Positions 3,283-28,418 of a stretch of DNA of 35,400 bases are shown here, one piece after another. The DNA lies in contig JAITVG010000229.1 of the NCBI GenBank assembly GCA_031285925.1, positions 1 through 35,400 of the forward strand, given 5' to 3'. The position numbers were made by a program, and so were the translations under genes. How positions within the stretch are numbered: the stretch's first letter is position 1; each line of letters starts with the position of its first letter. Source of the stretch: Tannerellaceae bacterium (GTDB lineage Bacteria; Bacteroidota; Bacteroidia; Bacteroidales; Tannerellaceae). A model generated the notes under the pieces. The model was not told the origin of the DNA. It did no database searches and saw nothing but the letters and a program-made list of their open reading frames with translations.

Positions 3283-4128
3283 TTATCCGTTCAACAATTT
3301 ATACTCTTCTTCCTCTGATGGGGGGATCAGATCTTCAGGCAAATCGGATACACCGAAATTCTTATAATCGGTCAGCAGATTGCCTGCATCTTTTTCGGCT
3401 TCGGTCTTTTCAACCATCTGGGTTTCCATGCCTTCGGCCGCTTCATGTATATCTTCGGCAATAAATATGTACTTGCCGTACCATTTATTAAAGGTGTCGG
3501 CGTCCAATTCCATTTCAGTCATCAATAAATCACGAACGGCCGGTTCCAACGCTTCGGCAGCAATAGCGCTTTGACGAGCGGCGCTATACTTGCGCATCGT
3601 GGTTTGCCATTCTTTTCTCAATTCGGGAATTTCTTTTATCCCCTGCCCGATAACATGAGGCCCCAAGTCTTTTACGGGTTTGATATAAGAAAAGGCTTTC
3701 AATCCCAAATTGGGAAGCGCCAAAGCCGCAGTTGCCGTTTGCAAGCTAAGCGCAGTAGCGTCCAGCGCAATTTGCGTGCCGATAAGGACAGCATGTGCCG
3801 CCTGCCACCGTCCCATACCTTCGCTCAGAAATTTATTGCCGACCGAATCGATCATGCACTTCAAAAGATAGTCTTTACCTCCTGCGGAAAAAGCAACTTC
3901 CCGGTATTGATACGTTGCAAGATCGGATCTGTAAGTCGAAATCAAGTTATACAGCGAATCGCAGGACGACAGGTAGGCATCGATGTCTTTATCACCCGAC
4001 GGCTTCGGCATTTCCCATACAAACGTCTTTTCCTTCTTACTTTTTTTCTGGGCGACCACAGACTCCGGAAATACAAGTAACAATCCTAATACTGCCGCAA
4101 AGGCAACTAATACATGTTTAGTTCTCAT
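3283..4128 (-). CDS. Exported protein of unknown function (last gene of the tubulin-like operon)
   Basis: Start MRTKHVLVAFAAVLGLLLVFPESVVAQ looks like a signal peptide; same-strand tight cluster. Confidence 0.7.
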   Translation of the reverse strand: MRTKHVLVAFAAVLGLLLVFPESVVAQKKSKKEKTFVWEMPKPSGDKDIDAYLSSCDSLYNLISTYRSDLATYQYREVAFSAGGKDYLLKCMIDSVGNKFLSEGMGRWQAAHAVLIGTQIALDATALSLQTATAALALPNLGLKAFSYIKPVKDLGPHVIGQGIKEIPELRKEWQTTMRKYSAARQSAIAAEALEPAVRDLLMTEMELDADTFNKWYGKYIFIAEDIHEAAEGMETQMVEKTEAEKDAGNLLTDYKNFGVSDLPEDLIPPSEEEEYKLLNG

Positions 4129-4159
4129 AATTGATATTGTTTTAATTGTTAATAAAATA

Positions 4160-5533
4160 TTATTCAAATACTATTTCTGTCGTTGTACTGCTGATGGCAT
4201 ACGATTCTTTGTCGCCAAAAAAATAAAGGTAAGCCGGTGGCGCAGTTTCAAAAACCAGACGGAACGAACCGTCATCGCGCGTAAGCCCCAACGGTTCATC
4301 CTTTTTATTTGTCTTCGGCTTCTTTTCCGTAGCCGATGCGTAAATCGGGATTCCTCCCCCACCGGGATGTTTACCGGTGATTACCTGATACTGCACCAAT
4401 ACGGTGTCTTCCTTCATATTCAGCGGATGATTATCCAGTTTTGTGTCTAATGTTGTAATACGTTCGGCATATATCGACGCGCCGGGTGCGTATTCCAACA
4501 CCTTTTGATAAGCGCGGATAGCTCCACGCAAGTAGACAAATACACTATCGGCTGTAAATCCTTCTTCGCGTTCAATTCTTGCTCCTTGCCTTTCGAACTT
4601 TTCGGCATAAAACAGAAATCTGCGCGCCGAACTCATTTTACCCAATCGTTCTTCCAGTTCGCCTCTTCGATCTATCGGACAATTCACATGGCTCCGCGCG
4701 TCCTCCCAGGCATTGGCGGCCGCGAAAAAGTCGGATTCGTTTTCTTTGGCCACCGCTTTGGCCACCACCTCATCGAATGAGAGTTCTTTCTCGATTACCT
4801 TCACATTGCTTACAACCGTATAACTATACGATTTCTTATATTCCAAATCCCCTCCCAGGTCAATGGGAATAGCCGTGCGGTTATCTACCTTTATATTGAA
4901 TACCGGATGTTTTACAAAAGTGGTTGTCGGCATTGCCTCATCAAGCGAGAAGGCGATACTGTATTCCGTCAGTACGCCGTCCCGGTTTATCGAAGCCGTC
5001 ATATTCGTCCCGTTCATTGTCACAGCCTCTCCGTTCGAGAAGCAGACGGCGCCGTTGCATTCAATGGTAAGCTTCTGTACTTCGGACAAGAATGTCACTT
5101 TGGCCGCTTTTGATTCGGGATACACGCGGTCGCCATTCCTTTCGATCGTGAGGAAGTTTTCGTTAAACGTACCCACATAGGCTTTCCCTTCCCACAGCGT
5201 GAGCTTCGCCTCTTCCTGTCCTGCCGGTAAACGGAGTATCAGCGTTGTTTTAATAAACTCATCTTCATAATCTTCAGGGAAAGCATAATCAATCGTGTAA
5301 CAGAATGTCCCGTCCTCCGCCGCTGTTTTTACGCCCTCTTCTTCTCCCGAACTATGCTGCATGGTCATTTTATCGCTATTGGAATAAACGATAATCTTCA
5401 CCCGGCCGGGAGCAACAGTGATTGCCGGATCTTCCTTAAAGTCGATAAACGTGGTTCTTTGCGCATGTGCATCCATCCCTGCTACCCCTGTGAGGAGTAT
5501 CAATAATACAATATGAAATATCTGTTGCATCAT
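4160..5533 (-). CDS. Exported protein of unknown function, helical TPR-like middle region and beta-rich C-terminal domain
   Basis: Signal peptide MMQQIFHIVLLILLTGVAGMDAHAQ; long continuous ORF in operon. Confidence 0.75.
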   Translation of the reverse strand: MMQQIFHIVLLILLTGVAGMDAHAQRTTFIDFKEDPAITVAPGRVKIIVYSNSDKMTMQHSSGEEEGVKTAAEDGTFCYTIDYAFPEDYEDEFIKTTLILRLPAGQEEAKLTLWEGKAYVGTFNENFLTIERNGDRVYPESKAAKVTFLSEVQKLTIECNGAVCFSNGEAVTMNGTNMTASINRDGVLTEYSIAFSLDEAMPTTTFVKHPVFNIKVDNRTAIPIDLGGDLEYKKSYSYTVVSNVKVIEKELSFDEVVAKAVAKENESDFFAAANAWEDARSHVNCPIDRRGELEERLGKMSSARRFLFYAEKFERQGARIEREEGFTADSVFVYLRGAIRAYQKVLEYAPGASIYAERITTLDTKLDNHPLNMKEDTVLVQYQVITGKHPGGGGIPIYASATEKKPKTNKKDEPLGLTRDDGSFRLVFETAPPAYLYFFGDKESYAISSTTTEIVFE

Positions 5534-5543
5534 ACGATCAGAT

Positions 5544-6545
5544 TTACAAGTCGATTACAAAATCACCCGTAGTGAAGATTTCTTCCTTAGCGATTTCTTC
5601 CGTACGGTTGCTGTTCATCCAGCGCGGTTGCCAGGTACGCACATGAATCTGCACCTCATCTTTGTTGCGAAAATCCCATAGCATAAACAGATAGCCGTCA
5701 TCACTGTATCCACTGCTATTCGCGTAAAGCTGATGCACCGTCACTCCATAAAAGCCTTCCATCTTCGGATTCGGATGCTTGACAACCTTAACTTCATCAA
5801 AATTCACATTGATCCATTTGTTTACGGCAAAGCTGCGTTTCAGGTTGGCAATGTATTCCTGCTTGCCCTGCTTCTTGTAAGTTACCTTATCGTATGTAAC
5901 TCCCGCTCCGTCGGTCTTCTTCACTTTAGTCACCACTCCGGTGATGATCAAAGCGTCCTCGCTGAATATGTTTTCCAAAAACACGATGTCTTCTTCATTG
6001 TAGGCCGTGCGAAACTGCTCTACGTAGGAAAGTATCTCCTGCCGGCGGGCTACTTCCGTCACTGTCTTTCCCTTTTTCATCACGTCCTGATAGATCGTGG
6101 TACTTAATGTAAAATTCAAACGTTCAATCTTTCCGTTCGCATCATAATTGATCACAGCTTCCTGGTAATTATCATCCAATGTTTCTCCCATCGGTTTAAT
6201 GATCAACGGGATCCGGCGTACCTGATAGCCACTGCCGTTATTGAGGCACGACTGAAGCACTTCCGATTCGTTGCAATAGAAATGTGTATTCTCCCATAGC
6301 GCATTCAAGCCCCGTTCGGCTGTTTCGGAGAGTTCCATGAGTGCCAGATTCAAGGCTCTGTTTTCCTTAAATGCCCGGTTGATTTCCGTAAGCAATCTGC
6401 CGGTAGACATTTCTATTTTAGCCTTCAATCCTGCATTATACAAACCATCAACGATTTCCAGTTTAACGTCATCCTGGGCTTGAACGGGAAGTGCTATCAG
6501 TGCTATTGCAACTGCCAGCACCCAACTTAAAATAGTTCTTTCCAT
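5544..6545 (-). CDS. Exported protein, possible NTF2/SnoaL-like domain
   Basis: Signal peptide ending PVQAQ; segment EQFRTAYNEEDIVFLENIFSEDALIITGVVT resembles NTF2-like folds. Confidence 0.65.
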   Translation of the reverse strand: MERTILSWVLAVAIALIALPVQAQDDVKLEIVDGLYNAGLKAKIEMSTGRLLTEINRAFKENRALNLALMELSETAERGLNALWENTHFYCNESEVLQSCLNNGSGYQVRRIPLIIKPMGETLDDNYQEAVINYDANGKIERLNFTLSTTIYQDVMKKGKTVTEVARRQEILSYVEQFRTAYNEEDIVFLENIFSEDALIITGVVTKVKKTDGAGVTYDKVTYKKQGKQEYIANLKRSFAVNKWINVNFDEVKVVKHPNPKMEGFYGVTVHQLYANSSGYSDDGYLFMLWDFRNKDEVQIHVRTWQPRWMNSNRTEEIAKEEIFTTGDFVIDL

Positions 6546-6588
6546 TATCTTATCTTTTTACCTGTTAATTATTCAGTAACTATCTTTC

Positions 6589-7593
6589 TCATTTTATTCC
6601 TGTTTTCTTTTCGGGGGTTGTATTTTCCCCATTCAGTTCGCCAAACAGTGATGAGATATTGTGTGTAGGGACAAACAGGGTGATGTCGCCTGCTATGGTA
6701 CCTTTCTTTTCGCCCAAAAGCGCGTAAGGCACCTCAACATTCATCACATGATTATATTTCAACACCGTGTTTACGGCAAACACATACGCTTTCACACAGT
6801 CGGTATCCAATGCTTCAATGCCTGCATACAGCCTGCAACCACGAACTTCCGCATACTTTATCCACGAACGCAGCGGAACCGTAAACCGATCCTTTTTCAA
6901 TCCGTACCGGCGAACCGTAAGATCGACCGACAGATCACAATCCATCTCTCCGGAGAGCAGAAGGTTGAACACACTCTCCGCCGGATGATCCTTGCTGAAC
7001 ACCAACCGTTTGTTGCCCTTCACTTCTTCATAGTAAAGATGATTGTTGATTTCTTCCATATAATAGGCATCGCCTGTTTTCATATAATAACCGCTTGCCA
7101 ATTTCTTCAGTTCTCCGCCTGCAAGCGGCACCGACGGTTCCACATATCGTAATGTCGAGAGTTCCGAAACAAATGCATTTTCCAGCTCTTTCAGGTTCAT
7201 TCCGGTCAGCAACCGGCACGAAGCCGGGAAAGAAAGTTCGATCAGCAGCAGCGATTCATTCGCAAACGATACGGTATAACGGTTTTCCCTCTCGGAGAAG
7301 TTCATGGCTGTCTGTTCGTCGATAAGGTTCAAATGATGCAGACCGCCTTGAAGAATCCGTACATCGTCGCGTTCCATCCTTGATTTCCTTTCGGCAGCCG
7401 GCATGCTTTGGAGTTGAGTCAGGTAGCGTTCCGTAAAGTCGTAGGCCACAAGGGCATAAGGAATATCGGAAGAAACGGAAACTACCGACTCGCGGAGTTT
7501 TCCGGTTCCCCAATTTCCTGTTTGCTGTCCCCAAGCAATGAACGGGAACAGCAAAAGGAGCATACGGACAGTCTGAATAGCCGGCTTCCTCAT
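6589..7593 (-). CDS. Exported protein of unknown function
   Basis: Signal peptide MRKPAIQTVRMLLLLFPFIAWGQ; start ATG overlaps upstream stop as TAATG. Confidence 0.7.
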   Translation of the reverse strand: MRKPAIQTVRMLLLLFPFIAWGQQTGNWGTGKLRESVVSVSSDIPYALVAYDFTERYLTQLQSMPAAERKSRMERDDVRILQGGLHHLNLIDEQTAMNFSERENRYTVSFANESLLLIELSFPASCRLLTGMNLKELENAFVSELSTLRYVEPSVPLAGGELKKLASGYYMKTGDAYYMEEINNHLYYEEVKGNKRLVFSKDHPAESVFNLLLSGEMDCDLSVDLTVRRYGLKKDRFTVPLRSWIKYAEVRGCRLYAGIEALDTDCVKAYVFAVNTVLKYNHVMNVEVPYALLGEKKGTIAGDITLFVPTHNISSLFGELNGENTTPEKKTGIK

Positions 7594-8450
7594 TACGGAA
7601 TGATCACTTCTTTATTTCCATCGCTCTTATACCACGTACCGGTAGTGAGATGACCGTCCTCAAAGATACCAATCACCTTTTCGCCTGCTTTCGCTTCGCG
7701 CTTCTTCACATCGCGCGGTTCGATGATATGTGTGGTTTTAAATGTAAGCACTCCGTTATCATCGTTCATCAAGCCATTCTTCATGCGTCCTTTGTAGACG
7801 GCATAACCCAGGTCTTTGGTTATGATGCCGTTGCTATCGCCTCCATTACCGCCATTACCACTTTCAGATACAACAACTTCTATTTCAGCTTTTGTCTGTG
7901 AACGGTCTGCCACGGCTGCGATAATGGCTTTACCTGCTGCAAGCGCTGTAACGATACCATCCTGTGATACCGTAGCCACCGCTTCATTATCCGATTTCCA
8001 TACAATGGATTCATTCGCATTAGCGGGATGGCAATTGATATTCAACTGTTTCGTTTCATCCTTTTTCAGTTTCATATCCTGTGCCGTTTCCATAAATGTT
8101 ATGTCGGTTATATTTATTTTAGCTACGTTAATGGGATCCCCTCCCGGTTTCGGAGGAGGAGGTGGAGGAGAAGGAGGGTCACCACCCATAAACATAAAAC
8201 CGACCGCTCCGCCTCCCAAAATCACCACGGCCGCAATGATCCCGAATATCAGTTTCATGTTCGCACCTTTTTTAGGTGGAGGAACCATACGTAACGGTTC
8301 TTTACACTCTTCGCATACGAAATCCTGCGCAGCCCTTACAGCCTGTACTTCCTTACTTTCAAACTTCGGGCAGGGTTTTCCCTCTCCGTCTTTGTCTCGA
8401 TTGGTGCAGATACCATATTTGTATCTGTCGTGTTCACTCGATCTTGCCAT
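7593..8450 (-). CDS. Zinc-ribbon-like / TM helix / Pro-rich linker / Big_2-type Ig-like domain / MORN-like C-terminus
   Basis: CTNRDKDGEGKPCPKF..FVCEECKEPL; LIFGIIAAVVILGGGAVGFMFM; PPSPPPPPPKPGG; KKDETKQLNINCHPANANESIVWKSDNEAVATVSQDGIVTALAAGKAIIAA; YKGRMKNGLMNDDNGVLTF. Confidence 0.75.
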   Translation of the reverse strand: MARSSEHDRYKYGICTNRDKDGEGKPCPKFESKEVQAVRAAQDFVCEECKEPLRMVPPPKKGANMKLIFGIIAAVVILGGGAVGFMFMGGDPPSPPPPPPKPGGDPINVAKINITDITFMETAQDMKLKKDETKQLNINCHPANANESIVWKSDNEAVATVSQDGIVTALAAGKAIIAAVADRSQTKAEIEVVVSESGNGGNGGDSNGIITKDLGYAVYKGRMKNGLMNDDNGVLTFKTTHIIEPRDVKKREAKAGEKVIGIFEDGHLTTGTWYKSDGNKEVIIP

Positions 8451-8457
8451 AACTATT

Positions 8458-11400
8458 TTATCTCTTGTTTATTAATTCGATTGCTTTCGTTGCTTCCGTA
8501 GCATATTGCTGATACTTGGCCGATGTCGGGCTTGCACATTCCCTGCTTACATATTCACGCATCACTACTTTCACCGCTTCCACCATAGCTGAACGTTCGC
8601 TCATCTTCAAATCCGGATTTTTAAGGAGTGCGTCTACCTTTTCCTTGATGGTATCGAGCACTTCTTCCGTCAGCTCCTCGCTGGTGAGTATATCCGTAAA
8701 CCGGGGAGCGATGAGTGTTACTATCTCGGAGCCAAACATATCGGTCGTCACAATACACCAACCCTTTTCTTCACGCATATTTTCGCGAATAGCCAAAACA
8801 TTGTTGGCGACAGCTATAAACAGATAAGGAATAAACTCTTGCGGTGAAATCCTCCTTTCGCCCATCAATTCAGGCAAATCTGTTCCGTCGCCTTCGCTGT
8901 GGAGCAGGATACGGGCTTCTCTGGCTTCGGTTTCGTTCCTGTTGTTCACCATGTCGTTGTAGGCACGATCATAGTAAGGCAACCAGGAGATGGCACGCAT
9001 TGGGAAGCAGCAACGAACGGAAACGATTGTAATCTCATTCATTCGCGAGCCGGATGTGTCAAACTGAATGATACTGCCCGGCGTTGCATTACCAAAAGCT
9101 CCCCGGAAGGCCGATTTTAGTCTATCGGCAAATACTTTGAGCGACTCGTTTCCCTCGTCCGCAGGCATCGATACAAGAATCGTCTTGCGATTGATGGATT
9201 CGGGCTGAGCCACCGGATTGGGATTATTATTCAATGCTTTCGACAGTTCTCCATCATCGAGTTTCAGGAACGTGCCGCTCTTTTTAATAACATCATTAGC
9301 AAAATTGCGTATATCTGTTTCGGTGAGCAGCACTTTCTGCAATTGTTGCAGTACGTTCAGTCCCAATATTTTGTCATGCTGATAGTCTTGATCATGCTTT
9401 TCGCGCACTCTCGGGCTAAGCTCGGTATCGAAGATATCGAAAATGACATCATCGTTCGTTGTGTCCGCCAATTCACTGAAGTGCGCATACGTGCGATTAC
9501 CGGCAATAGCTTTACGGATATTTCCTGCCCATGTTTCCTGCTGGTTCTTGTCCAAAATAAGCGCCTGTTCTATTTTTAGCATCTTCTCATCTTCGCTCAC
9601 TTCAACAATAGCGCCCGACAAATCAGCTATTCCTTTCGTATTCTTATTACGGTCGGCAATGCGTTTCTCGGCAGCGTCCATCGATACAAGCAATACGCCG
9701 ATGAACCGGCTGACTTCCGCACTAAACTCTTCAAACACTGCACGAAGCTTGCCCAGCAACTTGCCTTCAAATTCGTAAGCCACTCGCTGAGTGCGCAGCG
9801 TATAGAGGTCTTTCATAATCAACTGATGGTCGGAATACAGACGGGGCGACTTCCCTGTAGCGCGTTGCAGCAACGACAAGTTGTTGAAGTCGTAATTGTT
9901 AGCGTCGGCATCGCCTTTATTCAAACTAATCCTTTCGTCTACTCCGGCAATATCCGCTTCTATCCGGTCCTTGCGATTCCTGATATAAGTCAGCACCGTA
10001 TTACAGATGTTCAGTAAATCTTCCAGCGAGAGAAAACCTTCATACCACTTCGTATACAGATCCCTTTCTATACGTTCTATAATATACCGTGCCTGTTCTC
10101 TCAGCAATTGGTCATTCCCTTTGTCCTGATAGTAAGGTTCAACTCCCTGCCTGTTGCGAAATGCAGTATTATACGTTTCGGCACAGTGATTTTCAAGGAA
10201 CCGCAACGGTTCCGGATCTACCCCCCTAGCGGCATCATAAGAGTAATCGTTAGTGATCTCACTCCAAAAAGTTTCTATCCTGCTGCAATATCTGTCGGTA
10301 TCAAATATTCTTTCTTCCAGCATCAGGTGGCTGTCGTCGAGCCTCCATTCGCGCAGATTCCTATCATTAATATACAATTCGCGATAGTCTTTGCGGGCAG
10401 ATTCCTTCACGAATCCAAAGTCTTCTTTGAAATTGTTGTATTGCATCTGAAGCAATACACGTTCGCCGATGGTGTAGGTGATATGTTCCAGTATACGCTT
10501 TTCCGGATAGATGATGCGCTTGATACCAAACGTACTGATGGCTTTGGTGCGGGCGCGTTCTTTGTCGTTGCCTCTTAACTTTTCGCTGTATTCTACACAG
10601 AAATCGTTAATGTTTTCCAGGCTGAAAGAGCGCAGGAAGCCGTCTGTCGTACCATTCTTTTCTTCGAGGAAAAGACGGAAATACACCGTATCCGCCAACA
10701 GTTGGGGAAGCTCCGTAAACGAATTAACCACTACTCCGTTTTCATTGACGTTGGAATAAAGCATCAATCCGAACTGTTTGTTGGGAGTGATATTTAAGTT
10801 TACATGTTCGTCGCCGCGAATAACATCCGAAGGCAAGAAACGACCGACATTGAGTGCGCTCAACTCCCTCAGTGCCGCATAGCCGTTCTGATGATAACGT
10901 CCGGCCTGGCATCCTGCCGGAATATCCAGCTCGGGCACCATGGCGTAGACCATAATATTGGCATGTCTATAAGCTTCTTGCGCACGGGTTTGTGCAATGA
11001 CGTCAATGATTGAACCCGAACCTGTTCCACCCGCCAATCCGGTGAAGATATGAATATTGAGGCTATCATTGTTTGTAATATCCCTTACCTTATCATATTG
11101 TCCTCTAAGAGCAGCGAGATAACTGTTGCAATTGGCAGCAAACAGGATACGTCCGGCACGGCGTTTCTGCCCGGCAGCGGCTCCTACCTCGCCCAGTGTA
11201 TTTTTCATCGAAGCGCCATTTCTCACGATAGTCTTCAGGCCGGGGAAACTGGAAACATTGTCCAATATCTGCTTCAAGTCTACCGTCTTAATATCTACAA
11301 ACTCGCTTTCCGTGAATGAGGCATCCTTGCCCATCACCCGGAATGAAGGATCGCCGGGTGCCATCATCTCACGTGTAGAGTCCACGTATACAAAGCCGAT

Positions 11401-11535
11401 AGCCAGCTTTGCACGGTCGTCATCGTTTGGAAACTCCTGAAAAATACGCTTGCGGATAGCTTTCAGCACTTTGCCGCCTGTACCGCCTAAACCTACCAGA
11501 ATGTGGTTTGGGTTGGTGAGATCTAATCTGTCCAT
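8458..11535 (-). CDS. Tubulin-like (FtsZ/tubulin superfamily, Tub_2-like) protein, 1025 aa
   Basis: N-terminal ILVGLGGTGGKVLKAIRKRI nucleotide-binding loop and GLAGGTGSGSIIDVIAQ, matching the tubulin/FtsZ GGGTG(S/T)G signature. Confidence 0.8.
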   Translation of the reverse strand: MDRLDLTNPNHILVGLGGTGGKVLKAIRKRIFQEFPNDDDRAKLAIGFVYVDSTREMMAPGDPSFRVMGKDASFTESEFVDIKTVDLKQILDNVSSFPGLKTIVRNGASMKNTLGEVGAAAGQKRRAGRILFAANCNSYLAALRGQYDKVRDITNNDSLNIHIFTGLAGGTGSGSIIDVIAQTRAQEAYRHANIMVYAMVPELDIPAGCQAGRYHQNGYAALRELSALNVGRFLPSDVIRGDEHVNLNITPNKQFGLMLYSNVNENGVVVNSFTELPQLLADTVYFRLFLEEKNGTTDGFLRSFSLENINDFCVEYSEKLRGNDKERARTKAISTFGIKRIIYPEKRILEHITYTIGERVLLQMQYNNFKEDFGFVKESARKDYRELYINDRNLREWRLDDSHLMLEERIFDTDRYCSRIETFWSEITNDYSYDAARGVDPEPLRFLENHCAETYNTAFRNRQGVEPYYQDKGNDQLLREQARYIIERIERDLYTKWYEGFLSLEDLLNICNTVLTYIRNRKDRIEADIAGVDERISLNKGDADANNYDFNNLSLLQRATGKSPRLYSDHQLIMKDLYTLRTQRVAYEFEGKLLGKLRAVFEEFSAEVSRFIGVLLVSMDAAEKRIADRNKNTKGIADLSGAIVEVSEDEKMLKIEQALILDKNQQETWAGNIRKAIAGNRTYAHFSELADTTNDDVIFDIFDTELSPRVREKHDQDYQHDKILGLNVLQQLQKVLLTETDIRNFANDVIKKSGTFLKLDDGELSKALNNNPNPVAQPESINRKTILVSMPADEGNESLKVFADRLKSAFRGAFGNATPGSIIQFDTSGSRMNEITIVSVRCCFPMRAISWLPYYDRAYNDMVNNRNETEAREARILLHSEGDGTDLPELMGERRISPQEFIPYLFIAVANNVLAIRENMREEKGWCIVTTDMFGSEIVTLIAPRFTDILTSEELTEEVLDTIKEKVDALLKNPDLKMSERSAMVEAVKVVMREYVSRECASPTSAKYQQYATEATKAIELINKR

Positions 11536-11565
11536 AATACTATTTATTTAATTGTTAATTATTAA

Positions 11566-12144
11566 TTATATCCTGCGATGCGCCCGCGGACGGACATGTG
11601 CACCGTTACTCCGGCGCGGTGAAGAAACTGCCGGTCGCTGCCCTCTGTTCCTGCCGCCTCCGCCATTTGCCGCAGCATCCAATGCCACTACGCCCGCAAA
11701 ACATACAATGATCCCACCCAGCGCCCATGCAGCATGCCGCCACATAAACCGGTTGATGGCGCTGCTGATGCAGGTCAATAAAAAGGTTTTCATGTCGGTT
11801 CCCTGCATTTGCGCGGTGATAAATTCGTCGGCTGCGGTGGCCGCTATCTCTTTCAGGTAGGGTTTCAGAAAAGTATATTCATCGACAAGATCGCTCCAAT
11901 CGGTTGCCCTGCCGACAGTTGCGCTCAGCACTTCCATGTCGGTCAGCATACTTTTAGCCCTTGCGCCGCCGATGATAGCCGCAAAATGGAACGAAAGGAA
12001 GATGAAAAGGAAAATGCCTGCCAATCCTGTTTGCCAAACAGGCATCTTTGTTAAAGCGTTTATTAAAAAGGCGGCAAGGCCGGCAACTAATATCCCGGCC
12101 AATATGCCCCAAAAAAGCGCTGCTGCAAAACCAAAAAACATCAT
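11566..12144 (-). CDS. Integral membrane protein with Arg-rich C-terminal tail (first gene of the operon)
   Basis: Several hydrophobic segments (LFWGILAGILVAGLAAFLI, GIFLFIFLSFHFAAII, AWALGGIIVCFAGVVAL) and tail SSPRRSNGAHVRPRAHRRI; ORF track starts at a GTG at 12150, ATG at 12144 preferred. Confidence 0.65.
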   Translation of the reverse strand: MMFFGFAAALFWGILAGILVAGLAAFLINALTKMPVWQTGLAGIFLFIFLSFHFAAIIGGARAKSMLTDMEVLSATVGRATDWSDLVDEYTFLKPYLKEIAATAADEFITAQMQGTDMKTFLLTCISSAINRFMWRHAAWALGGIIVCFAGVVALDAAANGGGGRNRGQRPAVSSPRRSNGAHVRPRAHRRI

Positions 12145-12612
12145 AACCACCCTCCCTGCCTAACTTTTAGTTTCAAATATGGCACCGGCGTATTGCACAG
12201 CGGAGGCTGTACCATGCTTGGAGCAGGCAAAACACAGCACACTTTACAGGGTTGTAAAGCGCAAAAAATAAGGAATAAAATAAATAATAAGGGGATACTT
12301 ATACTACCTCTCTCTCTCTAAGAAATAACCGGAACAAACCAACACAAGAGTGTTAATTAATCCCAATTTAAAGAAGTAGTTTGTGCCGGACAGATACATA
12401 ACTATTGTGTATTACTCTTTTGAAAAGCAAAGAAAGTGAATAATTCGGAATTTCGGAATACTGATTATGAAAAAATATTATCTGCGGGGCAAAAAAGCAC
12501 GATTATACCTGTTTTTCCATGCAGTGAGTGACTACATGGCCGATTAGCCTAACACACGCGCACACAAGATATTACGTAATGTTAAAAAGTGTTTCTATAT
12601 ATAGTACGCGCT

Positions 12613-12652
12613 CGTAGTACCTATACAACGGCGCCGTAGTATAGGTAGTACG
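12613..12652. repeat. 40-bp near-perfect palindrome
   Basis: cgtagtacctatacaacggcgccgtagtataggtagtacg; self-complementary except two mismatched pairs. Confidence 0.85.
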
Positions 12653-12670
12653 AAGAAATAGTATATATAG

Positions 12671-12992
12671 CCTGTATTATTCATTCTCTCTTTATTTCAG
12701 CGAGTGTAGCGAGTGGCCGCAGGCCTGTCTTTTGCCGTCATGCTTTAGCTGACGGTTAATTATTTCCGGCTTCAAAGCCGGTTCCTCTGTGGGTTTCAAC
12801 CCCTTTACAAGATTAAACACAGAGGCACGGAGAGCATGTTGTGAACCGGAGAACACGGAGTTTTGCGTGCCATGGCACGCCTCTGTGTCCTTTCAACTTT
12901 GTGTCCCCGTGTCCTCCGCGTTGAATTGACAGCAAAAGACAGACCTGCGGCCACGAGCTACGCTCGCTGAAAAAGAGTATGAATAATGCAGG
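12671..12992. repeat. Long imperfect inverted repeat (arms 12671-12740 and 12927-12992) with nested hairpins
   Basis: CCTGTATTATTCAT..TTTCAGCGAGTGTAGCGAGTGGCCGCAGGCCTGTCTTTTGCCGTCA versus the reverse complement of the right arm CCTGCATTATTCAT..TTTCAGCGAGCGTAGCTCGTGGCCGCAGGTCTGTCTTTTGCTGTCA. Confidence 0.85.
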
Positions 12993-13035
12993 ATAGAAGG
13001 CTGTAGTTAGTATATATAGAACTACTCTGACTACT

Positions 13036-13800
13036 CTAACTACTTGACAATCTTCTTCTGAACTCGGCGCATACGATGGCTGTCGCCATCGCTACGTTCA
13101 ACGACTCCGAGGTGTCTTTCCCTGCAGGATAGTCGGGGATGAATAGCTTTTCGTTCACCAGCGAGGCTATGGCCGGGCGTATTCCGTTCCCTTCGTTTCC
13201 CATAACGATAAATCCGTTCGGGGAAAGTTCCCGGTGATACATGTTGTCGCCTTCCGGGAATGTGCCGTACACGGGAATGCCGGCTTCTTTCTGTTTGGTC
13301 AGATAAGGCTCCGGATCGGTGTAATGCACTTTCACTCGCGCCAAACTTCCCATCGTGGCCTGCACCACTTTGGGATTGAAAACATCCGCCGTGTCCGGGC
13401 TGCAAACAATGTGTTCGATGCCAAACCAGTCCGCCGCGCGTATGATCGTGCCCAGATTACCGGGATCCTGCACGCCGTCGAGAACAAGAACCAGTTGGTT
13501 CTCCGGAGATATATCGCCGATCGGCCATTGGGGTTGCCTGAACACGGCGATCACATCCTGCGGGTTCTTCAATAAACTTGCCTTCCGGATGTCTTCCTCG
13601 TCGGCAATCAGAAGTTCGCGTGCCGGAATATTTCCCTGCGTCGCCATCCAGGACGGTTTGGCGATGATCAATTCGCTGTCGAAAGCGTACAGCATATCTG
13701 CAACGAGCTTATTGCCTTCCGCGATAAAAACGCCATCTTCGTTGCGGCACTTCTTGCTGTCCAGCGAGCGGATATATTTTAATTTGTTCTTACTGACCAT
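13036..13800 (-). CDS. TrmH/SpoU-family RNA methyltransferase
   Basis: LDGVQDPGNLGTIIRAADWFGI, GFIVMGNEGNGI and SLNVAMATAIVCAEF SPOUT motifs. Confidence 0.9.
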   Translation of the reverse strand: MVSKNKLKYIRSLDSKKCRNEDGVFIAEGNKLVADMLYAFDSELIIAKPSWMATQGNIPARELLIADEEDIRKASLLKNPQDVIAVFRQPQWPIGDISPENQLVLVLDGVQDPGNLGTIIRAADWFGIEHIVCSPDTADVFNPKVVQATMGSLARVKVHYTDPEPYLTKQKEAGIPVYGTFPEGDNMYHRELSPNGFIVMGNEGNGIRPAIASLVNEKLFIPDYPAGKDTSESLNVAMATAIVCAEFRRRLSSS

Positions 13801-13855
13801 ATTGCGTTTCTCATTATTTCAAAAACAAAATTAGGGGATTTAATTTTAATTCAAG

Positions 13856-13871
13856 TACATTTGCAAATGTA
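13856..13871. promoter_or_regulatory. Divergent -7 elements forming a 16-bp perfect palindrome TACATTTGCAAATGTA
   Basis: TACATTTG fits TAnnTTTG on both strands between divergent genes. Confidence 0.5.
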
Positions 13872-13880
13872 AATGAAAGT

Positions 13881-16223
13881 ATGATGAAGGTTCTCCCGCG
13901 TATCGTTTGCTTGGCTGTATTCCTGATTGTGTCGGCTTCTTGCACTACAACAAAGTTCGTGGAAGACGATCATTACCTGCTGGATAAGGTCGTTATAGAA
14001 TCCGACAACGTTGATTTCAGCACTTCCGAATTGAACTCATATATACGCCAGCAACCCAATTTCAAACTGTTCGGCCTGGTAAAATGGCAGTTGTATGTCT
14101 ACAACTGGTCGGGGCGCAACGAAAATAACTGGTTCAATAAACAGTTGAGAAGGATAGGGGAAGCTCCCGTGATCCTCGATTCCCTGATGGTGGAGCAGTC
14201 GCAAACGGAGTTAAGGCGTTTTCTTCTCAATAAAGGATATATTAACGCGGATGTTTCTTCGTCGGTCGATACTGCCCGGAGAAAGAAAGCGGCAGTTACT
14301 TACCGCGTCATATCCAACGAACCCTACCGGATAGGAAACTACAACTCGAAGTTGGATGACAGCCGCATCGACAGTATCGCTCACCTGACCCCGCGCAGAA
14401 GGTCGGCATTGGCCGGCGCTTTTCGTTCCGCACAGCAAAATCTTACGCCTCTGGTCAGAGAAGGGAATTTATTCGACAGGGATGTGCTCGATGAAGAAAG
14501 GCAACGGATCACTTCCCTGTTGCGGCGCAGGGGATACTACGCCTTTAACCGTGATTACCTGGGCTATTTGGCCGACAGTACGCGTAGCCGGCATTTGGTG
14601 GATGTCGATATGCAATTGAAGCCTTTCCGCAGATTCAATCCGGACGGTTCCGCCACGGAAGAACCTCACCGGCAATACTATATAAATAATGTATCCATAC
14701 TGACCGACTATAACGTGATGGACGACAATTCAAGCACGCGCTTTATTCCGACAGATACGGTAAAAAACAACGCGCTGACTATTATCTACGGGCAGAGCGG
14801 AAGGACTTTGCGCCCCGGCATATTGCGCGATGCGGTCTATCTTTCATCGGGGCAACTGTATAATGAACGAAATGTGGAACAAACCTATTCCGCACTTACG
14901 TCATTGCGGGCACTGAAAAACGTAGGCCTGCGCTTTACCGAATATGAGGAGAACGACACCTTAAAGCTGGATTGTGTCATACAGACTTCTTTTTCCCAAC
15001 CGCAAAGTGTCGGTTTCGATGTGGAGGGAACGAACAATGCCGGCGATTTGGGATTCGCTTCCGGTCTGACTTATCAGCATCGCAACCTGTTCAGAGGCGG
15101 CGAGGTGTTTTCGGCACGCATACGCGGGGCTTATGAATCGCTGGGCGGTTCGGACAGTTATTGGGAATACGGCGGAGAGGCTTCCGTTTTGTTTCCCCGT
15201 TTTCTTTTCCCGTTCCTTGATTACGACTTCAAGCGAAGTTTGAGGGCTTCCACGGAATTGCGCCTGAGCTACAACAAGCAGGATCGCCCGGAGTATGAGC
15301 GTTCTATTTTCTCCGGATCATGGAACTACATCTGGCAGGACAGGAGCAATGTGCTGGCGCGCCACACGTTGAAATTGCTGGATGTGGATTATGTTTTACT
15401 TCCCTCTATCGATCCGGGATTTAAGAACAGCCTTCCCGAAGCTCTTCTGCGGTATAATTACACGAACCAGTTTATTGTTTCCACCGGATATATCTATTCG
15501 TTTAATAATTATTCCTCGCAAAATCGGATGCGAAATACACATTCTCTGCGTGTTTCCGTAGAAACGGCAGGAAATGTACTGTATGCCTTATCCAATCTGA
15601 CAAAAGCATCGAAAGACGCGAACGGGCGTTACAGTTTATTCGGCACGAACTACTCGCAGTTTGTAAAGGGGGATATTGATGCAGGCCGCGGAATTGTGCT
15701 GGACAACCGGAGCCGTCTGGCTTTTCACATAGGAGTAGGCGTAGGCACGCCTTATGGAAACGCGGAGATGCTGCCTTTCGAGCGGCGTTACTTTTCAGGA
15801 GGGGCGAACAGTGTGCGCGGTTGGTCTGTTCGCGAACTCGGGCCGGGAAGCATGGCGGTTACCGACACCACAAGTTTTGCCTATCAGGTAGGCGATGTCC
15901 GCTTGGATATGAATGTGGAGTATCGCACGAAACTGTTTTGGAAATTCGAGTTGGCCGCCTACATCGACGCCGGTAACATCTGGACGATCCGGCCTTATAC
16001 CGACCAGCCCGACGGCAACTTCGATTTCTCACGCTTTTATAAAGAGATAGCCGTATCCTACGGATTGGGATTGCGCCTGGACTTCGATTTCTTCCTGCTC
16101 CGTTTCGACACCGGCTTCAAAGCCTATAATCCGCAGGAACGGGGAAGCAGGCGATGGGCTGTCGCCCACCCCAACTTCGGAAAGAACTTTGCCTGGCATT
16201 TTGCCGTCGGTTACCCGTTCTGA
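13881..16223 (+). CDS. BamA/TamA (Omp85) family outer membrane protein with lipobox, TamL-like
   Basis: VFLIVSASCTTTKF lipobox; POTRA-like N-terminus; barrel motif RYFSGGANSVRGWSVRELGPGS; C-terminal FAWHFAVGYPF. Confidence 0.85.
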   Translation: MMKVLPRIVCLAVFLIVSASCTTTKFVEDDHYLLDKVVIESDNVDFSTSELNSYIRQQPNFKLFGLVKWQLYVYNWSGRNENNWFNKQLRRIGEAPVILDSLMVEQSQTELRRFLLNKGYINADVSSSVDTARRKKAAVTYRVISNEPYRIGNYNSKLDDSRIDSIAHLTPRRRSALAGAFRSAQQNLTPLVREGNLFDRDVLDEERQRITSLLRRRGYYAFNRDYLGYLADSTRSRHLVDVDMQLKPFRRFNPDGSATEEPHRQYYINNVSILTDYNVMDDNSSTRFIPTDTVKNNALTIIYGQSGRTLRPGILRDAVYLSSGQLYNERNVEQTYSALTSLRALKNVGLRFTEYEENDTLKLDCVIQTSFSQPQSVGFDVEGTNNAGDLGFASGLTYQHRNLFRGGEVFSARIRGAYESLGGSDSYWEYGGEASVLFPRFLFPFLDYDFKRSLRASTELRLSYNKQDRPEYERSIFSGSWNYIWQDRSNVLARHTLKLLDVDYVLLPSIDPGFKNSLPEALLRYNYTNQFIVSTGYIYSFNNYSSQNRMRNTHSLRVSVETAGNVLYALSNLTKASKDANGRYSLFGTNYSQFVKGDIDAGRGIVLDNRSRLAFHIGVGVGTPYGNAEMLPFERRYFSGGANSVRGWSVRELGPGSMAVTDTTSFAYQVGDVRLDMNVEYRTKLFWKFELAAYIDAGNIWTIRPYTDQPDGNFDFSRFYKEIAVSYGLGLRLDFDFFLLRFDTGFKAYNPQERGSRRWAVAHPNFGKNFAWHFAVGYPF

Positions 16224-19040: not shown

Positions 19041-19685
19041 TTACTTCGACCACTCTAAGTAGTCATCGAACGTACGCTGTTCAAAGTTTGGAATAACAGT
19101 ATGCACCCTGTCTTTCAGCGTTTCCGCGGGATTACTTGTAGAAAGCCCTATCACGCGCATACCGGCTGCATTGCCTGCCGCTATTCCGGCAAAGGAATCT
19201 TCAAACACGAGGCATTGACCGGGAGATACTCCCAGGTCGGAAGCGGCAAGCAGGTAGCACATCGGGGCGGGCTTTCCTGCGGTAATCCTGTCGGCCGTAA
19301 CTACCGTATCGAACAATTCCTTCATTTCGTACATCTCAAAAGCGCGCTCGATCTTCCATTGGGCGGAACTTGTAACCAGTCCCACCACTACACCTTCCGA
19401 ACGGATCAATTTCAGGAACTCGAATGAACCCGGCATCAGCGGCATGGGCATAATCCGCTCGAACGCTTCGGCTTCCCGCCTTACTCTTTGTTGAAATTCC
19501 TCCGGATAAACGGAAAACCATTCCTGCATGATATGCTCCATGGTAGTTCCCTTTATCAAATCTGCAAAATCGGGAATGTCCAGACCGTAGCGCTCAACAG
19601 CTTCGTTCCAATACACGTCGTAGACCGGTTCCGTATCTACAATTACACCATCGAAATCAAATAGTGCGATTTTCCTGTTTTCCAT
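19041..19685 (-). CDS. HAD-superfamily hydrolase (beta-phosphoglucomutase-like)
   Basis: KIALFDFDGVIVDTEPVYD, VGLVTSSA and CLVFEDSFAGIAAGNAAGMRVIGL; start at MENRK preferred over 19778. Confidence 0.9.
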   Translation of the reverse strand: MENRKIALFDFDGVIVDTEPVYDVYWNEAVERYGLDIPDFADLIKGTTMEHIMQEWFSVYPEEFQQRVRREAEAFERIMPMPLMPGSFEFLKLIRSEGVVVGLVTSSAQWKIERAFEMYEMKELFDTVVTADRITAGKPAPMCYLLAASDLGVSPGQCLVFEDSFAGIAAGNAAGMRVIGLSTSNPAETLKDRVHTVIPNFEQRTFDDYLEWSK

Positions 19686-19752
19686 TATCTTTTTCTGTAT
19701 GAATTCAGGGGCGAAGTTAAGGCGAAATATTAAACTGAGAAAAATTAGAAGC

Positions 19753-19768
19753 TTTTTATCTAAGTTTG
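19753..19768 (+). promoter_or_regulatory. Putative promoter -7 region, first copy of 16-mer TTTTTATCTAAGTTTG
   Basis: TAAGTTTG fits TAnnTTTG; identical 16-mer at 19929-19944. Confidence 0.45.
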
Positions 19769-19806
19769 TAGTCTTCATTGAAAACTAAAAAATTGAAGAC
19801 TAAATT

Positions 19807-19983
19807 ATGAAGACTATCCAAACAGATTTGCAGAGTGGCCTGATTATTCCGGGCGAATATGAGTCCGGCACCTTCCGATTTCTCTACAAAACTTTGATTT
19901 TCTTATCCGACGCGCTTATAAATCGCTATTTTTATCTAAGTTTGCCGGATACCATTCAAGAGAAGAAAGATGAAAAAGATTAA
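19807..19983 (+). CDS. Possible 58-aa small ORF overlapping the start of the next gene
   Basis: MKTIQTDLQSGLIIPGEYESGTFRFLYKTLIFLSDALINRYFYLSLPDTIQEKKDEKD*; preceded by a TAnnTTTG element; below the ORF-track length cutoff. Confidence 0.2.
   Translation: MKTIQTDLQSGLIIPGEYESGTFRFLYKTLIFLSDALINRYFYLSLPDTIQEKKDEKD
19929..19944 (+). promoter_or_regulatory. Putative promoter -7 region, second copy of TTTTTATCTAAGTTTG
   Basis: TAAGTTTG 25 bp upstream of the ATG at 19970. Confidence 0.55.
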
Positions 19984-20191
19984 TATCACAAGTTTTGTGT
20001 TACTGGCTTATCTGATTGTGATGAGTGTGATCGGCTGGCCGGGAAGAATCGGCGCCAAGTTGGCGTACAGCGATTATTATTGTATGATCGGCGCCACTTT
20101 GCTTGTTATCGTGTTGTTGCGTCTGGTTCAAATCCGGCGTTTGAAAGTGAGAAAAAAAGAAAAAGAAAATAACAACAGTTATGAACATTAA
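19970..20191 (+). CDS. Small membrane protein, two predicted TM helices
   Basis: SFVLLAYLIVMSVIGWP and MIGATLLVIVLLRLVQI; overlaps the start of the downstream gene. Confidence 0.6.
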   Translation: MKKINITSFVLLAYLIVMSVIGWPGRIGAKLAYSDYYCMIGATLLVIVLLRLVQIRRLKVRKKEKENNNSYEH

Positions 20192-21230
20192 AACAGGCGA
20201 TAAAGTCCGGTTCCTTAATTCTGTCGGCGGAGGAATCGTTCGCAGCTTCAGAGGGAAAGATCAGGTTTTGATTGAGGATGAAGACGGTTTTGAAATACCG
20301 GCGCTGATCCGGGAGTGCGTGGTGATAGAAGAAAACACGTCGCAGGTACAAAAGAAAAAACAGGCGCCGCCACAGCCTCCTGTCGCTGTCGCACCGCCCG
20401 AACCGAAAGAATTGCCCGTAGTGGAAACCCCCGAAGGAGAACGATTGAATGTATCGCTGGCCTTTCTGCCGGTCGATCCCAAAACTTTTACGCAAAGCGG
20501 CTATGAAGCCTACCTAATCAACGACAGCAACTACTTCCTGTTCTACAACTACATGAACCGCCGGCATAACAGCTGGTACAGCCGCTCCAGTGGAACCGTC
20601 GAACCCAATACGCGCATATTCATGGAAGAGTTCGGCAAGGAGGATTTGAATGAACTGGAAAGGATATGTATTCAGTTTATTGCCTTCAAGAAAGATAAGC
20701 CTTATTCGCTGAAGAATGCGGTTTCCGTGGAGTTGCAACCGGACACGGTCAAGTTTTATAAAATCCATTGCTTCACGGCCAATGATTTCTTTGATGAAGA
20801 CGCACTGGTATTTCCGGTAGTGCGCAACGATATTCCCGAAAGGGAGTTGTTGGTCTCCGCCGCCGATATTCAGGAAGCGATGCTGCAAAAAGCAAAGGCC
20901 GACCGCACAATGCCCCGCCCTGTTCAAAAAAAGAAACAGCCGGACAACCCGGTCGTAGAAGTGGATTTGCACATCAACCAACTGTTGGACACGACCGCCG
21001 GCATGAGCAATTCCGACATGCTCAACTACCAGTTGGATAAATTCCGCGAAACCCTCTCCGCCTGCGCTTCGCGAAAAGGGCAAAAGATCGTTTTCATCCA
21101 CGGGAAGGGCGACGGAGTGCTGCGCAAGGCGATCGAAACCGAATTGAAAACAACGTACAGGAATTATTCTTACCAGGATGCCTCCTTCCGTGAATACGGA
21201 TTCGGGGCGACGATGGTGACGATCAGATAA
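20181..21230 (+). CDS. DUF2027 domain protein with C-terminal Smr domain
   Basis: KVRFLNSVGGGIVRSFRGKDQVLIEDEDGFEIPAL; C-terminal VEVDLHINQLLDTT..KIVFIHGKGDGVLRKAIETEL (Smr). Confidence 0.88.
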   Translation: MNIKTGDKVRFLNSVGGGIVRSFRGKDQVLIEDEDGFEIPALIRECVVIEENTSQVQKKKQAPPQPPVAVAPPEPKELPVVETPEGERLNVSLAFLPVDPKTFTQSGYEAYLINDSNYFLFYNYMNRRHNSWYSRSSGTVEPNTRIFMEEFGKEDLNELERICIQFIAFKKDKPYSLKNAVSVELQPDTVKFYKIHCFTANDFFDEDALVFPVVRNDIPERELLVSAADIQEAMLQKAKADRTMPRPVQKKKQPDNPVVEVDLHINQLLDTTAGMSNSDMLNYQLDKFRETLSACASRKGQKIVFIHGKGDGVLRKAIETELKTTYRNYSYQDASFREYGFGATMVTIR

Positions 21231-26075: not shown

Positions 26076-26600
26076 ATGAAAACAAACATTTTAAAAGTTG
26101 CTGCAATCATGATAATGTTAGCAGGAGAATTTGCTTGCACAAACAATGAAGATACGGATGAAAATAACATGGTTTCAATCAAAATCCAATGTAATTCTAC
26201 AAACGTTGTTGATCCCAATATTGCATCATTTGCACTTCCTGGTATCGTCGATGCAGTATGCACTGAACACCTACCATATCCTAATTATGGTGGAATTCCG
26301 GAAGCATGGAGTCCTCACTTATGGACTATATATTTGGTTTTATCAAAAGGAACTGATCGCACCAAGCTTGCTCCAATCATTACCTTGGCGCCAAACGTAA
26401 AAATCACACCAGTATCAGGTATGGTGTGTGATTTCACCAATCCGGTAGAATGGATTCTAATTGCACCGGATGGATCAACAGTCAATTATCAGGCTACAGT
26501 TTTTGTTATAGGTGATCCTTATCGGCATATAGAGTATGATAATGATGGAAATCAGATTATTACAGTAATTTATCCGGATGATCCACATTATCCATATTAA
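26076..26600 (+). CDS. Putative lipoprotein with DUF5018-like domain (unit 1, gene A)
   Basis: MLAGEFACTN lipobox-like; EHLPYPNYGGIPEAWSPHLWTIYL..IITLAPNVKITP..DFTNPVEWILIAPDGSTVNY. Confidence 0.75.
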   Translation: MKTNILKVAAIMIMLAGEFACTNNEDTDENNMVSIKIQCNSTNVVDPNIASFALPGIVDAVCTEHLPYPNYGGIPEAWSPHLWTIYLVLSKGTDRTKLAPIITLAPNVKITPVSGMVCDFTNPVEWILIAPDGSTVNYQATVFVIGDPYRHIEYDNDGNQIITVIYPDDPHYPY

Positions 26601-26627
26601 TTGAACAAGCAAAGCAAATAAAACAAT

Positions 26628-27446
26628 ATGAAATCACAAATTTTAAAATTCATCGCGATTATAGCTGTCTTGACAACAGGAAGTTTTTTCTCATCGGCGC
26701 AAAACAGCGAAACAGCCTTGTCTTCGGTTAATAATTTTGTGTCCTCATCAACCGCATTTGCAATTGATAAAAACATCATATCATTTGAAGTTGCCAACCT
26801 TGTTGATAAAATAATCTATGAACACACGCCGTATTCTAATTATGGTGGAATCCCGGAAGCATGGAGCCCTCACTTCTGGACAATAACACTGATTATGGCC
26901 AAAGGGACTGATGTTACCTCTCTTACCCCAGTCATCACTTTGGCACCCGGCGCTACCATAACATTGAAACATGTCGGTGTACAGGATTTCTCGCAACAGG
27001 TTGAATATACCGTAATTTGCGAGGATGGTTCAACCGTCACTTATTTATTTAGGGCTTATACACAAGAAAACACACGTGCAATAGGCTCAATTATAGTAAA
27101 TAAATCTCCCATTGGCGGGGGATTGACTTCTAATATTGGAATTACGTATTATGATGACAGGAATCACTTTTCGTGTAATGCAAGTCCCAACCCGGGATAT
27201 AGGTTCGAACGCTGGTATGTTAATGGTTCGCCAAAAGGGACTAATGTGCGCTTTAGTGATAAAATCCCTTTGATTAATGGAACAGGCACGCTCACCGCAG
27301 TATTCGCTCCTATAATATATTATACGGTTAGCATCTTTAGCAACGACACAAATAAAGGAACAGTATTTGGAGGAGGTACGGTCGTTGCTGGTGGAAGCTT
27401 ACACCTTTCCGCAACGCCTAGATCAGGATACGCATTTGATGGATGA
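26628..27446 (+). pseudogene. Exported DUF5018-like + InlB B-repeat-like protein, C-terminally truncated (unit 1, gene B)
   Basis: Parallel to 28419..30107 up to ATPRSGYAFDG, where paralog Trp (TGG) is TGA; homology ends within a few bases at the duplicated leader. Confidence 0.65.
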
Positions 27447-27451
27447 TATCA

Positions 27452-27535
27452 ATACCTATCGACAAAAATAGTTCACTTTCCCTTTGATTTCTATGATATT
27501 TATTTATAACTTGCTGCGGTTAATATGTGAAGTTG
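27452..27535 (+). repeat. Leader repeat, copy 2 (upstream of second DUF5018-like pair)
   Basis: AAAAATAGTTCAC..GATTTCTATGATATTTATTTATAACTTGCTGCGGTTAATATG..AGTTG, near-identical to 25947-26029. Confidence 0.8.
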
Positions 27536-27648
27536 CTTGAGAATCGCTTGTGGTATGCTTTACAAAGCATAAACCCACTAATTGGCGCACGGCCAACTTG
27601 CAGATATTCAGATTATTGTAAGTATTTGAACTATTTATATAATAAAGT

Positions 27649-27792
27649 ATGAAGACAAACAAACCAACTGCACATTTCCGGCAGGTACAACAAGGTTGTA
27701 ACCGGCAGGCAACGGTTAGGGTTCCGTTGATGTCAAAAAAAAACGGGGGAGAAATACATTGTCAAACAAATGATATGAAATGGATTTGTTAA
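27649..27792 (+). CDS. Possible 47-aa ORF or gene remnant in the segment inserted in leader copy 2
   Basis: MKTNKPTAHFRQVQQGCNRQATVRVPLMSKKNGGEIHCQTNDMKWIC*; reads through a poly-A tract into the leader repeat. Confidence 0.2.
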   Translation: MKTNKPTAHFRQVQQGCNRQATVRVPLMSKKNGGEIHCQTNDMKWIC

Positions 27793-27830
27793 GCAACAGT
27801 AAGTAACTATAAACATAAAAAATTGGACTT

Positions 27831-28367
27831 ATGAATTTACAGACATTTAAACTCGTAGCGCTTATGGTGCTTATTTCAGGATGCTTTTCCTGTACAAACG
27901 ATTTGGATGATCCTACTCCTCCAGTGGAAGGAACTTTTCCACTGGAAAAATTCGATGTAATAAACCCGGGGGAAAAATCATCTTCATTTGCGATTGACAC
28001 TAATGTGGTTTCATTCGCGGTTCCTAATACTGTTAGGGCAACAGCATATGAACATCTCCCGATACCCGGTTATGGAGGCCCAAATGCATGGAGTCCTCAC
28101 TATTGGAGAATACATCTGTTTATGGCAGAAGGTACCGATATTACCTCTCTTGCTCCAATTGTAACTTTGGCGCCCGGTGTAACCATAACGAAAATAGAGT
28201 GGGGATATCACAAAGAACCGGGTTTCCCGGAATCGGAACAGGTTAATTATACCGGAATTACTGATGTCGGTGTACAAGATTTTTCTAAGCCGGTTCATTA
28301 TACTGTAATTAAATCGGATGGCTCAACTATAACCTACAAGTTTTTGGCAATTACAATAAGTGATTAA
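27831..28367 (+). CDS. Putative lipoprotein with DUF5018-like domain (unit 2, gene A)
   Basis: LISGCFSC lipobox; YEHLPIPGYGGPNAWSPHYWRIHL..DFSKPVHYTVIKSDGSTITYKF. Confidence 0.8.
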   Translation: MNLQTFKLVALMVLISGCFSCTNDLDDPTPPVEGTFPLEKFDVINPGEKSSSFAIDTNVVSFAVPNTVRATAYEHLPIPGYGGPNAWSPHYWRIHLFMAEGTDITSLAPIVTLAPGVTITKIEWGYHKEPGFPESEQVNYTGITDVGVQDFSKPVHYTVIKSDGSTITYKFLAITISD

Positions 28368-28418
28368 ACTATTTTTCAAAGATAACTGAACAAAACAACA
28401 GTAATAAAACCACTAAAA

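Follow-up and report, generated by a model that had tools for sequence, protein, structure and literature searches.

What does a giant tubulin-like protein do in an operon that also encodes membrane and secreted proteins? The question is raised by seven genes on contig JAITVG010000229.1 of a Tannerellaceae bacterium (GCA_031285925.1), of which we analyzed positions 1 to 35,400 (35,400 nucleotides, hereafter the window). Our preferred reading, held with about even confidence, is that they form a vWA-less, Bacteroidota-type FtsZl1 system acting as a modular trans-envelope sensor/effector. At the level of sequence, an envelope module (g4, usually cl4, g3 and a variable, ligand-binding-like last protein) is conserved between loci, and the predicted cytosolic output is exchanged, being a zinc ribbon with the giant tubulin-like GTPase in some and a fusion to a TIR domain or to a protein kinase in others. 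Gene names follow the order of transcription (g7, TUB, g5, g4, g3, g2, g1). Compared loci carry L-numbers, L038 being the operon of the closest relative, Bacteroides sp. GM023. The seven open reading frames (ORFs) are near-contiguous and all lie on the minus strand of the window:

11566..12150, minus strand: g7, first gene, small membrane protein of 194 aa with about 4 hydrophobic segments and an Arg-rich tail
8458..11535, minus strand: TUB, 1025-aa protein of the FtsZl1/Tubulin_2 family with a long, probably helical C-terminal part (PF13809, family alignment, Foldseek)
7593..8450, minus strand: g5, adaptor with zinc ribbon, one transmembrane (TM) helix, Big_2 and a C-terminal MORN-like domain
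6589..7593, minus strand: g4, secreted protein without known fold, conserved partner
6546..6591, minus strand: remnant of deleted cl4, its first six codons (MRKIVT) and then a stop, from comparison with the L038 junctions
5544..6545, minus strand: g3, secreted protein with a C-terminal NTF2-like (Cds6_C/DUF4440-like) domain
4160..5533, minus strand: g2, secreted protein in the variable last slot
3283..4128, minus strand: g1, secreted protein (ORF listed from TTG 4167, likely ATG start at 4128)

The adaptor g5 gives the clearest indication of how the system is built. It has four invariant cysteines (C15, C27, C46 and C49) followed by basic residues, one hydrophobic segment near residue 61 and a Pfam Big_2 domain (E = 2.9e-15), the latter being optional in relatives. 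The Pfam MORN model did not score on g5 of the window, and it matched the homologous part of L115_08 at 5.8e-6. A preliminary description of this DNA, made from the sequence alone, had seen here a zinc-ribbon/TM/Ig-like/MORN fusion serving as a membrane-spanning adaptor. Both claims hold, with a single TM helix predicted and the MORN-like end recognized by homology to L115_08. Following the positive-inside rule, the zinc ribbon would be cytosolic and the MORN-like domain periplasmic.

A profile of the adaptor, built from tubulin-type members only, found three adaptors without a tubulin neighbor. Two of them are TIR-TM-MORN proteins: L115_08 (TIR_2 3.5e-14; adaptor-profile domain E 1.6e-19) and L128_09 (TIR_2 4.6e-6, just below the Pfam cut-off; adaptor-profile domain E 2.6e-16). 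The third, L114_06, is a protein kinase-TM-MORN protein (Pkinase 4.7e-28; adaptor-profile domain E 7e-17). All three adaptors are followed by g3, those of L114 and L115 also by g4, and that of L114 by cl4 too. Searched with the MORN-like domain, 277 Bacteroidales genomes yielded 7 matches, namely four tubulin-type, two TIR and one kinase adaptors, and none elsewhere. The zinc-ribbon/TM half is found with other outer parts as well: next to a related tubulin it is joined to PBP-OmpA in L120_04, and in Paraburkholderia (L153_17), also beside a tubulin, to TPR. All zinc-ribbon adaptors found adjoin a tubulin gene, and none of the TIR and kinase adaptors do. By these architectures, the exchange of both adaptor halves between loci is well supported. 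We define here a ZnR/TIR/kinase-TM-MORN adaptor family (ZnR, zinc ribbon) by one TM helix and a MORN-like domain with adjacent g4/g3, all of which are present in the window. Since the envelope genes and the adaptor tail are attached to a TIR domain or a kinase without tubulin at the locus, a signaling or effector use is pointed to. Beside the TIR-type locus L115 there is a second, divergently encoded TIR protein (TIR + TPR, 14473-15720).

The operon is conserved in order. In 21 Bacteroidota loci, g5 comes after the tubulin gene (with one extra ORF between them in L048), and where the contig continues it is followed by g4 in 20 of 20 loci and by g3 in 19 of 19. In 11 loci the tubulin gene has g7 ahead of it, and in 4, the window included, the g2-g1 pair is downstream. 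The neighbors thus co-occur in other genomes, with the gene order held in divergent Bacteroidota loci, as expected of the operon seen in the preliminary description. We rejected the possibility of chance ORFs, since about 20 other loci show the order g7-TUB-g5-g4-(cl4)-g3. Pairwise identities of the adaptor and the envelope proteins are strongly correlated (g5-g4 r = 0.85, g5-g3 r = 0.83, g4-g3 r = 0.88), and those involving the tubulin less so (TUB-g5 r = 0.62, TUB-g4 r = 0.40, TUB-g3 r = 0.22). The weaker correlation of TUB with the envelope proteins is as expected if the output is exchangeable.

Within the envelope module, g3 is the best-conserved partner (80% to L038). Its C-terminus is NTF2-like: Cds6_C is sub-threshold in the window, and 9 of 11 relatives match it, the best at 1.9e-6. 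Loci of the TIR type and loci without tubulin have g4 too. Between g4 and g3, 14 loci have a gene of 230-305 aa, named cl4, which in relatives encodes an LPP20-like secreted protein. In the window, the sequence just past the g4 stop is ATGAGAAAGATAGTTACT, which corresponds to how cl4 begins in L038 (ATGAGAAAGATAATTACT); a stop and the g3 start come next. Since this remnant matches the start of cl4 in L038 and then ends in a stop, cl4 was lost from the window by deletion, unless it was collapsed in the assembly. An essential role of cl4 was rejected, since the window, L044 and L142-L144 are without it. In several genomes cl4 is fused to the g3 C-terminal domain in proteins of about 600 aa, and one fusion of this type (L118_06) matches LPP20 (E = 2.5e-8) along with a sub-threshold Cds6_C. 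The existence of these fusions suggests that cl4 and the C-terminal domain of g3 may work together. LPP20-like/NTF2-like fusions are common in Bacteroidales away from tubulin genes, as in L118 (8444-10285), L119 (8295-10181) and L121 (6685-8574).

The content of the last slot varies from locus to locus. No Pfam match was found for g2, and weak profile similarity groups it with other last-slot proteins; in relatives, the slot is occupied by PEGA, FGE-sulfatase or Fib_succ_major proteins. An FGE-sulfatase protein occupies it in a tubulin-type locus (L071_05) and also in L128, which is of the TIR type. The g4-g3 pair also exists without tubulin or adaptor in L110 (5940-11674), L111 (6670-12641) and L113 (6107-11942), where a secreted protein of about 700 aa with Sel1 repeats comes before it and a TPR-like protein after it, in a purely envelope arrangement.

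The tubulin-like protein itself, a putative GTPase, is a member of the FtsZl1 family. Residues 12-360 match Pfam Tubulin_2 (PF13809, E = 3.1e-55), and a weak PF00091 match covers the T4 region. The T1-like loop GLGGTGGK (residues 15-22) is kept in the family alignment, as is GLAGGTGSG, which contains the T4 signature AGGTGSG (residues 168-174, with G169-G174 invariant), a loop of the GGGTG(S/T)G type that characterizes FtsZl1. AlphaFold2 models were built from three-sequence alignments. That of the whole 1025-aa protein (pLDDT 36) is unusable as a fold model, with long helices at residues 504-537 and 593-642 seen at this low confidence. That of residues 1-365 is also of low confidence (pLDDT 42, pTM 0.51), sufficient for fold matching. 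With it, nearly all of the 50 matches listed by Foldseek are structures of the tubulin superfamily, led by CetZ and TubZ, the best among them being CetZ at 1.6e-4 from this low-confidence model. The fold search supports the Pfam assignment and is no proof alone, since the model is weak. The giant had already been placed in the tubulin/FtsZ superfamily in the preliminary description, and both the Pfam match and the structure matches of the low-confidence model agree with this. Searches of PDB sequences with profiles of TUB, g3, cl4 and g4 gave nothing credible. A conventional FtsZ is encoded on another contig of the same genome (PF00091 search of this genome, 4.6e-47). Among the compared loci, L047 has tandem tubulin-like duplicates (9283-14586), a 719-aa copy with the same N-terminus standing just upstream of a 1035-aa copy. 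L045 has a further divergent tubulin-like copy of 376 aa downstream of the operon, and in L076 the tubulin-like gene is interrupted (755 aa + 265 aa, 8935-12063) and the remaining operon is intact.

How does this locus relate to published systems? The FtsZl1 family was described in 2010 by Makarova and Koonin, who list a member from Bacteroides caccae (PMC2875224). As in the systems described there, TUB is a giant with an N-terminal FtsZ-like domain, the T4 glycine loop and, as the low-confidence model suggests, probably a helical C-terminal part, in an operon with membrane and envelope partners and with a normal FtsZ alongside. Unlike those operons, that of the window has no vWA, GTPase or OmpA genes, and in their place stand the zinc-ribbon/TM/MORN adaptor and the g4-cl4-g3 module. 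Pfam searches of the seven window proteins gave no match to vWA, P-loop GTPase, protein kinase or OmpA. It had been proposed that the locus, having no vWA gene, could be a variant of the Makarova-Koonin system, and we agree that it is a vWA-less FtsZl1 variant. The missing OmpA link, also remarked before, is true of the window, although not of all its relatives, given the zinc-ribbon/TM half fused to PBP-OmpA. The adaptor and the g4-cl4-g3 module do not appear in the main text of PMC2875224, whose supplement may list parts of them as lineage-specific families. The word undescribed thus does not suit the tubulin, published as FtsZl1/Tubulin_2, but it does suit the vWA-less form built on the adaptor, in which outputs by TIR, kinase and tubulin are interchangeable; as far as the literature surveyed shows, this variant is undescribed. 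Bacteroidales also have classical vWA-FtsZl1 loci (L014, L015, L049 and L079). Like the window, they have a Tubulin_2 operon with membrane proteins, but a vWA-like (MIDAS-type) gene is found upstream and there is no zinc-ribbon/TM adaptor.

Another likeness is with the GAP1-N2 systems of Kaur et al. 2020 (PMC7159879), where a tubulin with a C-terminal helical extension is found near membrane-spanning and zinc-ribbon components, extracytoplasmic ligand-binding-like domains and FGE-sulfatase-type domains. The window differs from them in that no DO-GTPase or FNIII was matched in its seven proteins (Pfam, NCBIfam) and in that outputs are exchanged on one adaptor; moreover, the tubulin theme is confined to firmicutes and actinobacteria in that study. 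Sll0445-0447 of Synechocystis (PMC9880817) have the Tubulin_2 domain in common with TUB and differ in their FtsA/actin-like and DivIC-like neighbors and in a phenotype of motility and photosystem function. Interruption of sll0445 impaired phototactic motility, and co-fractionation with pilus proteins was reported (PMC9880817). This impaired phototaxis is the one mutant phenotype that we found in the literature for the Tubulin_2 family.

The distribution of the operon is patchy. In the same family, 12 of 125 genomes have relatives; the counts are 17 of 393 for the order (about half of them full-length matches) and 6 of 396 for a phylum sample, counting the genome of the window and one family member. 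The closest relative found, in Bacteroides sp. GM023 (82%), belongs by name to another family, and closely related complete operons are present there and in Parabacteroides acidifaciens. Within the same genus, one genome has only a 37% relative and three others have none. In four same-genus genomes the TrmH-BamA gene pair that flanks the operon upstream in the window is intact with no operon beside it, and the downstream flank is not adjacent. With its closest relative in another family, same-genus genomes having no relative or one at 37%, and the TrmH-BamA pair intact without the operon, the pattern fits an operon that was horizontally moved. Its GC content does not stand out, leaving no compositional mark of an island. 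Since searches of phages and viral contigs gave no relatives and the sole plasmid relative is on a Paraburkholderia megaplasmid, there is no sign of phage or plasmid carriage within Bacteroidales.

If the locus is a modular trans-envelope sensor/effector, it could work as follows. A change in the periplasm or outer membrane, possibly envelope damage or invasion, would be sensed by g3, g4, cl4 and the variable last protein. The signal would pass through the adaptor, whose MORN-like domain would report on or anchor the envelope proteins and whose zinc ribbon would be the docking site of the tubulin-like protein, as their co-occurrence suggests. Nucleotide-dependent assembly of the tubulin-like protein would then be switched on at the inner face of the membrane, where it may scaffold or seal the membrane or halt growth. 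In the TIR version, NAD+ cleavage or signaling would take the place of assembly, and in the kinase version, phosphorylation. We suggest more tentatively, as something possible rather than probable, that the tubulin GTPase is an interchangeable effector of a trans-envelope receptor, with polymer assembly as the output of an immune or stress receptor. FtsZl1/Tubulin_2 proteins were described in 2010, and almost no function has been assigned to them since. The swap of tubulin, TIR and kinase on a common adaptor and envelope module is a mechanistic constraint that would make the tubulin the output component of a transmembrane device; with the zinc ribbon as the predicted docking site, the role of divergent tubulins becomes testable.

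Several points weigh against the sensor/effector reading. Adaptor loci without tubulin number three only, with one TIR match just under the Pfam cut-off. Zinc ribbon and tubulin are linked by their co-occurrence, and the co-divergence of the genes reflects shared history, not contact. Outputs by kinase and TIR domains would also suit signaling in development or stress, and a structural filament is still a possible role for the tubulin. Finally, there is no credible match in PADLOC-DB 2.0.0 for the seven proteins or cl4, and identity with a known defense system was rejected on this basis. The function itself, be it a response to envelope stress or conflict or a remodeling of membranes, is inferred, and three rival explanations were considered.

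One of these is a membrane-remodeling cytoskeleton, in which filaments at the inner membrane, anchored to the periplasm by the adaptor, would bend or bud the membrane or make vesicles. It was proposed for FtsZl1 by Makarova and Koonin (PMC2875224) and agrees with the tubulin superfamily membership, the membrane and envelope partners and the OmpA-type peptidoglycan-binding domain on a related adaptor (L120_04). The same paper reports, however, that the T6-H7 elements are not identifiable in the family and that its authors consider filament formation uncertain; an accessory presence in 12 of 125 family genomes does not favor this explanation either. A filament coupled to the envelope had also been the suggestion of the preliminary description. 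The tubulin, the adaptor and the envelope partners stand, but the remodeling role is weakened by the TIR and kinase versions, in which these envelope genes and the adaptor tail are present and the tubulin is not, and we consider it unlikely.

Those versions would rather agree with an anti-phage or inter-bacterial conflict system, with the envelope proteins as sensors of injection or damage and the tubulin GTPase as an abortive or membrane-guarding effector, since TIR is a known immune NADase domain; TIR domains and kinases, however, are not exclusively immune. Tubulin-containing, GTPase-centric conflict systems have been predicted (Kaur et al. 2020, PMC7159879), with FGE-sulfatase among the domains of their effectors or interactors, and proteins with this domain occur in the variable slot here, but the DO-GTPase core of such systems is absent. 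An AriA/AriB (PARIS) pair is located about 200 bp downstream of the L038 operon (19262-21170; E 3.5e-58 and 3.9e-70). This neighbor is a single case, however, and several other loci are flanked by housekeeping-like genes. Even with the patchy, horizontally moved distribution in its favor, the conflict explanation lacks any PADLOC model match for the seven proteins, and we regard it as quite unlikely. An organizer of a surface appendage, motility or secretion, as suggested for Sll0445, seems very improbable. The impaired phototaxis and co-fractionating pilus proteins (PMC9880817) speak for it, but Sll0445 is a distant family member with FtsA-like and DivIC-like neighbors, and genes for pili, gliding or secretion are absent from the operon of the window and not conserved in those of relatives.

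With regard to gene calls, the seven same-strand ORFs with tiny gaps and overlaps of the preliminary description were reproduced, the starts of g1 and g7 being refined. The gaps are of 30 bases (g7/TUB), 7 (TUB/g5), 43 (g4/g3) and 10 (g3/g2), and overlaps of 1 base (g5/g4, TAATG) and 8 bases (g2/g1, as listed) were found. Because the 13 extra residues given to g1 by TTG 4167 have no counterpart in the homologue L038_12, ATG 4128 is more probably the true start. For g7, comparison with relatives makes an ATG the probable start, two or three codons downstream of the GTG that was listed. The N-termini of g4, g3, g2 and g1 are signal-peptide-like, in agreement with the signal peptides assigned earlier to the last four proteins.

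An Rfam search of the window found no RNA family. Upstream, the operon is flanked by a TrmH-type methyltransferase gene and a divergent BamA-like gene, and downstream by a convergent gene for a heavy-metal-associated (HMA) protein and a TonB receptor gene, all named by inspection of the sequence. The TonB-dependent receptor gene (624-2828), which adjoins the HMA protein gene, is broken into ORFs 624-1307 and 1482-2828 by an apparent frameshift and stop near 1302, and could be an assembly error or a pseudogene. At 26076-30107, where the GC content is low in part (38%), four paralogous ORFs for secreted proteins (174, 272, 178 and 562 aa) stand in tandem and have N-terminal domains in common.

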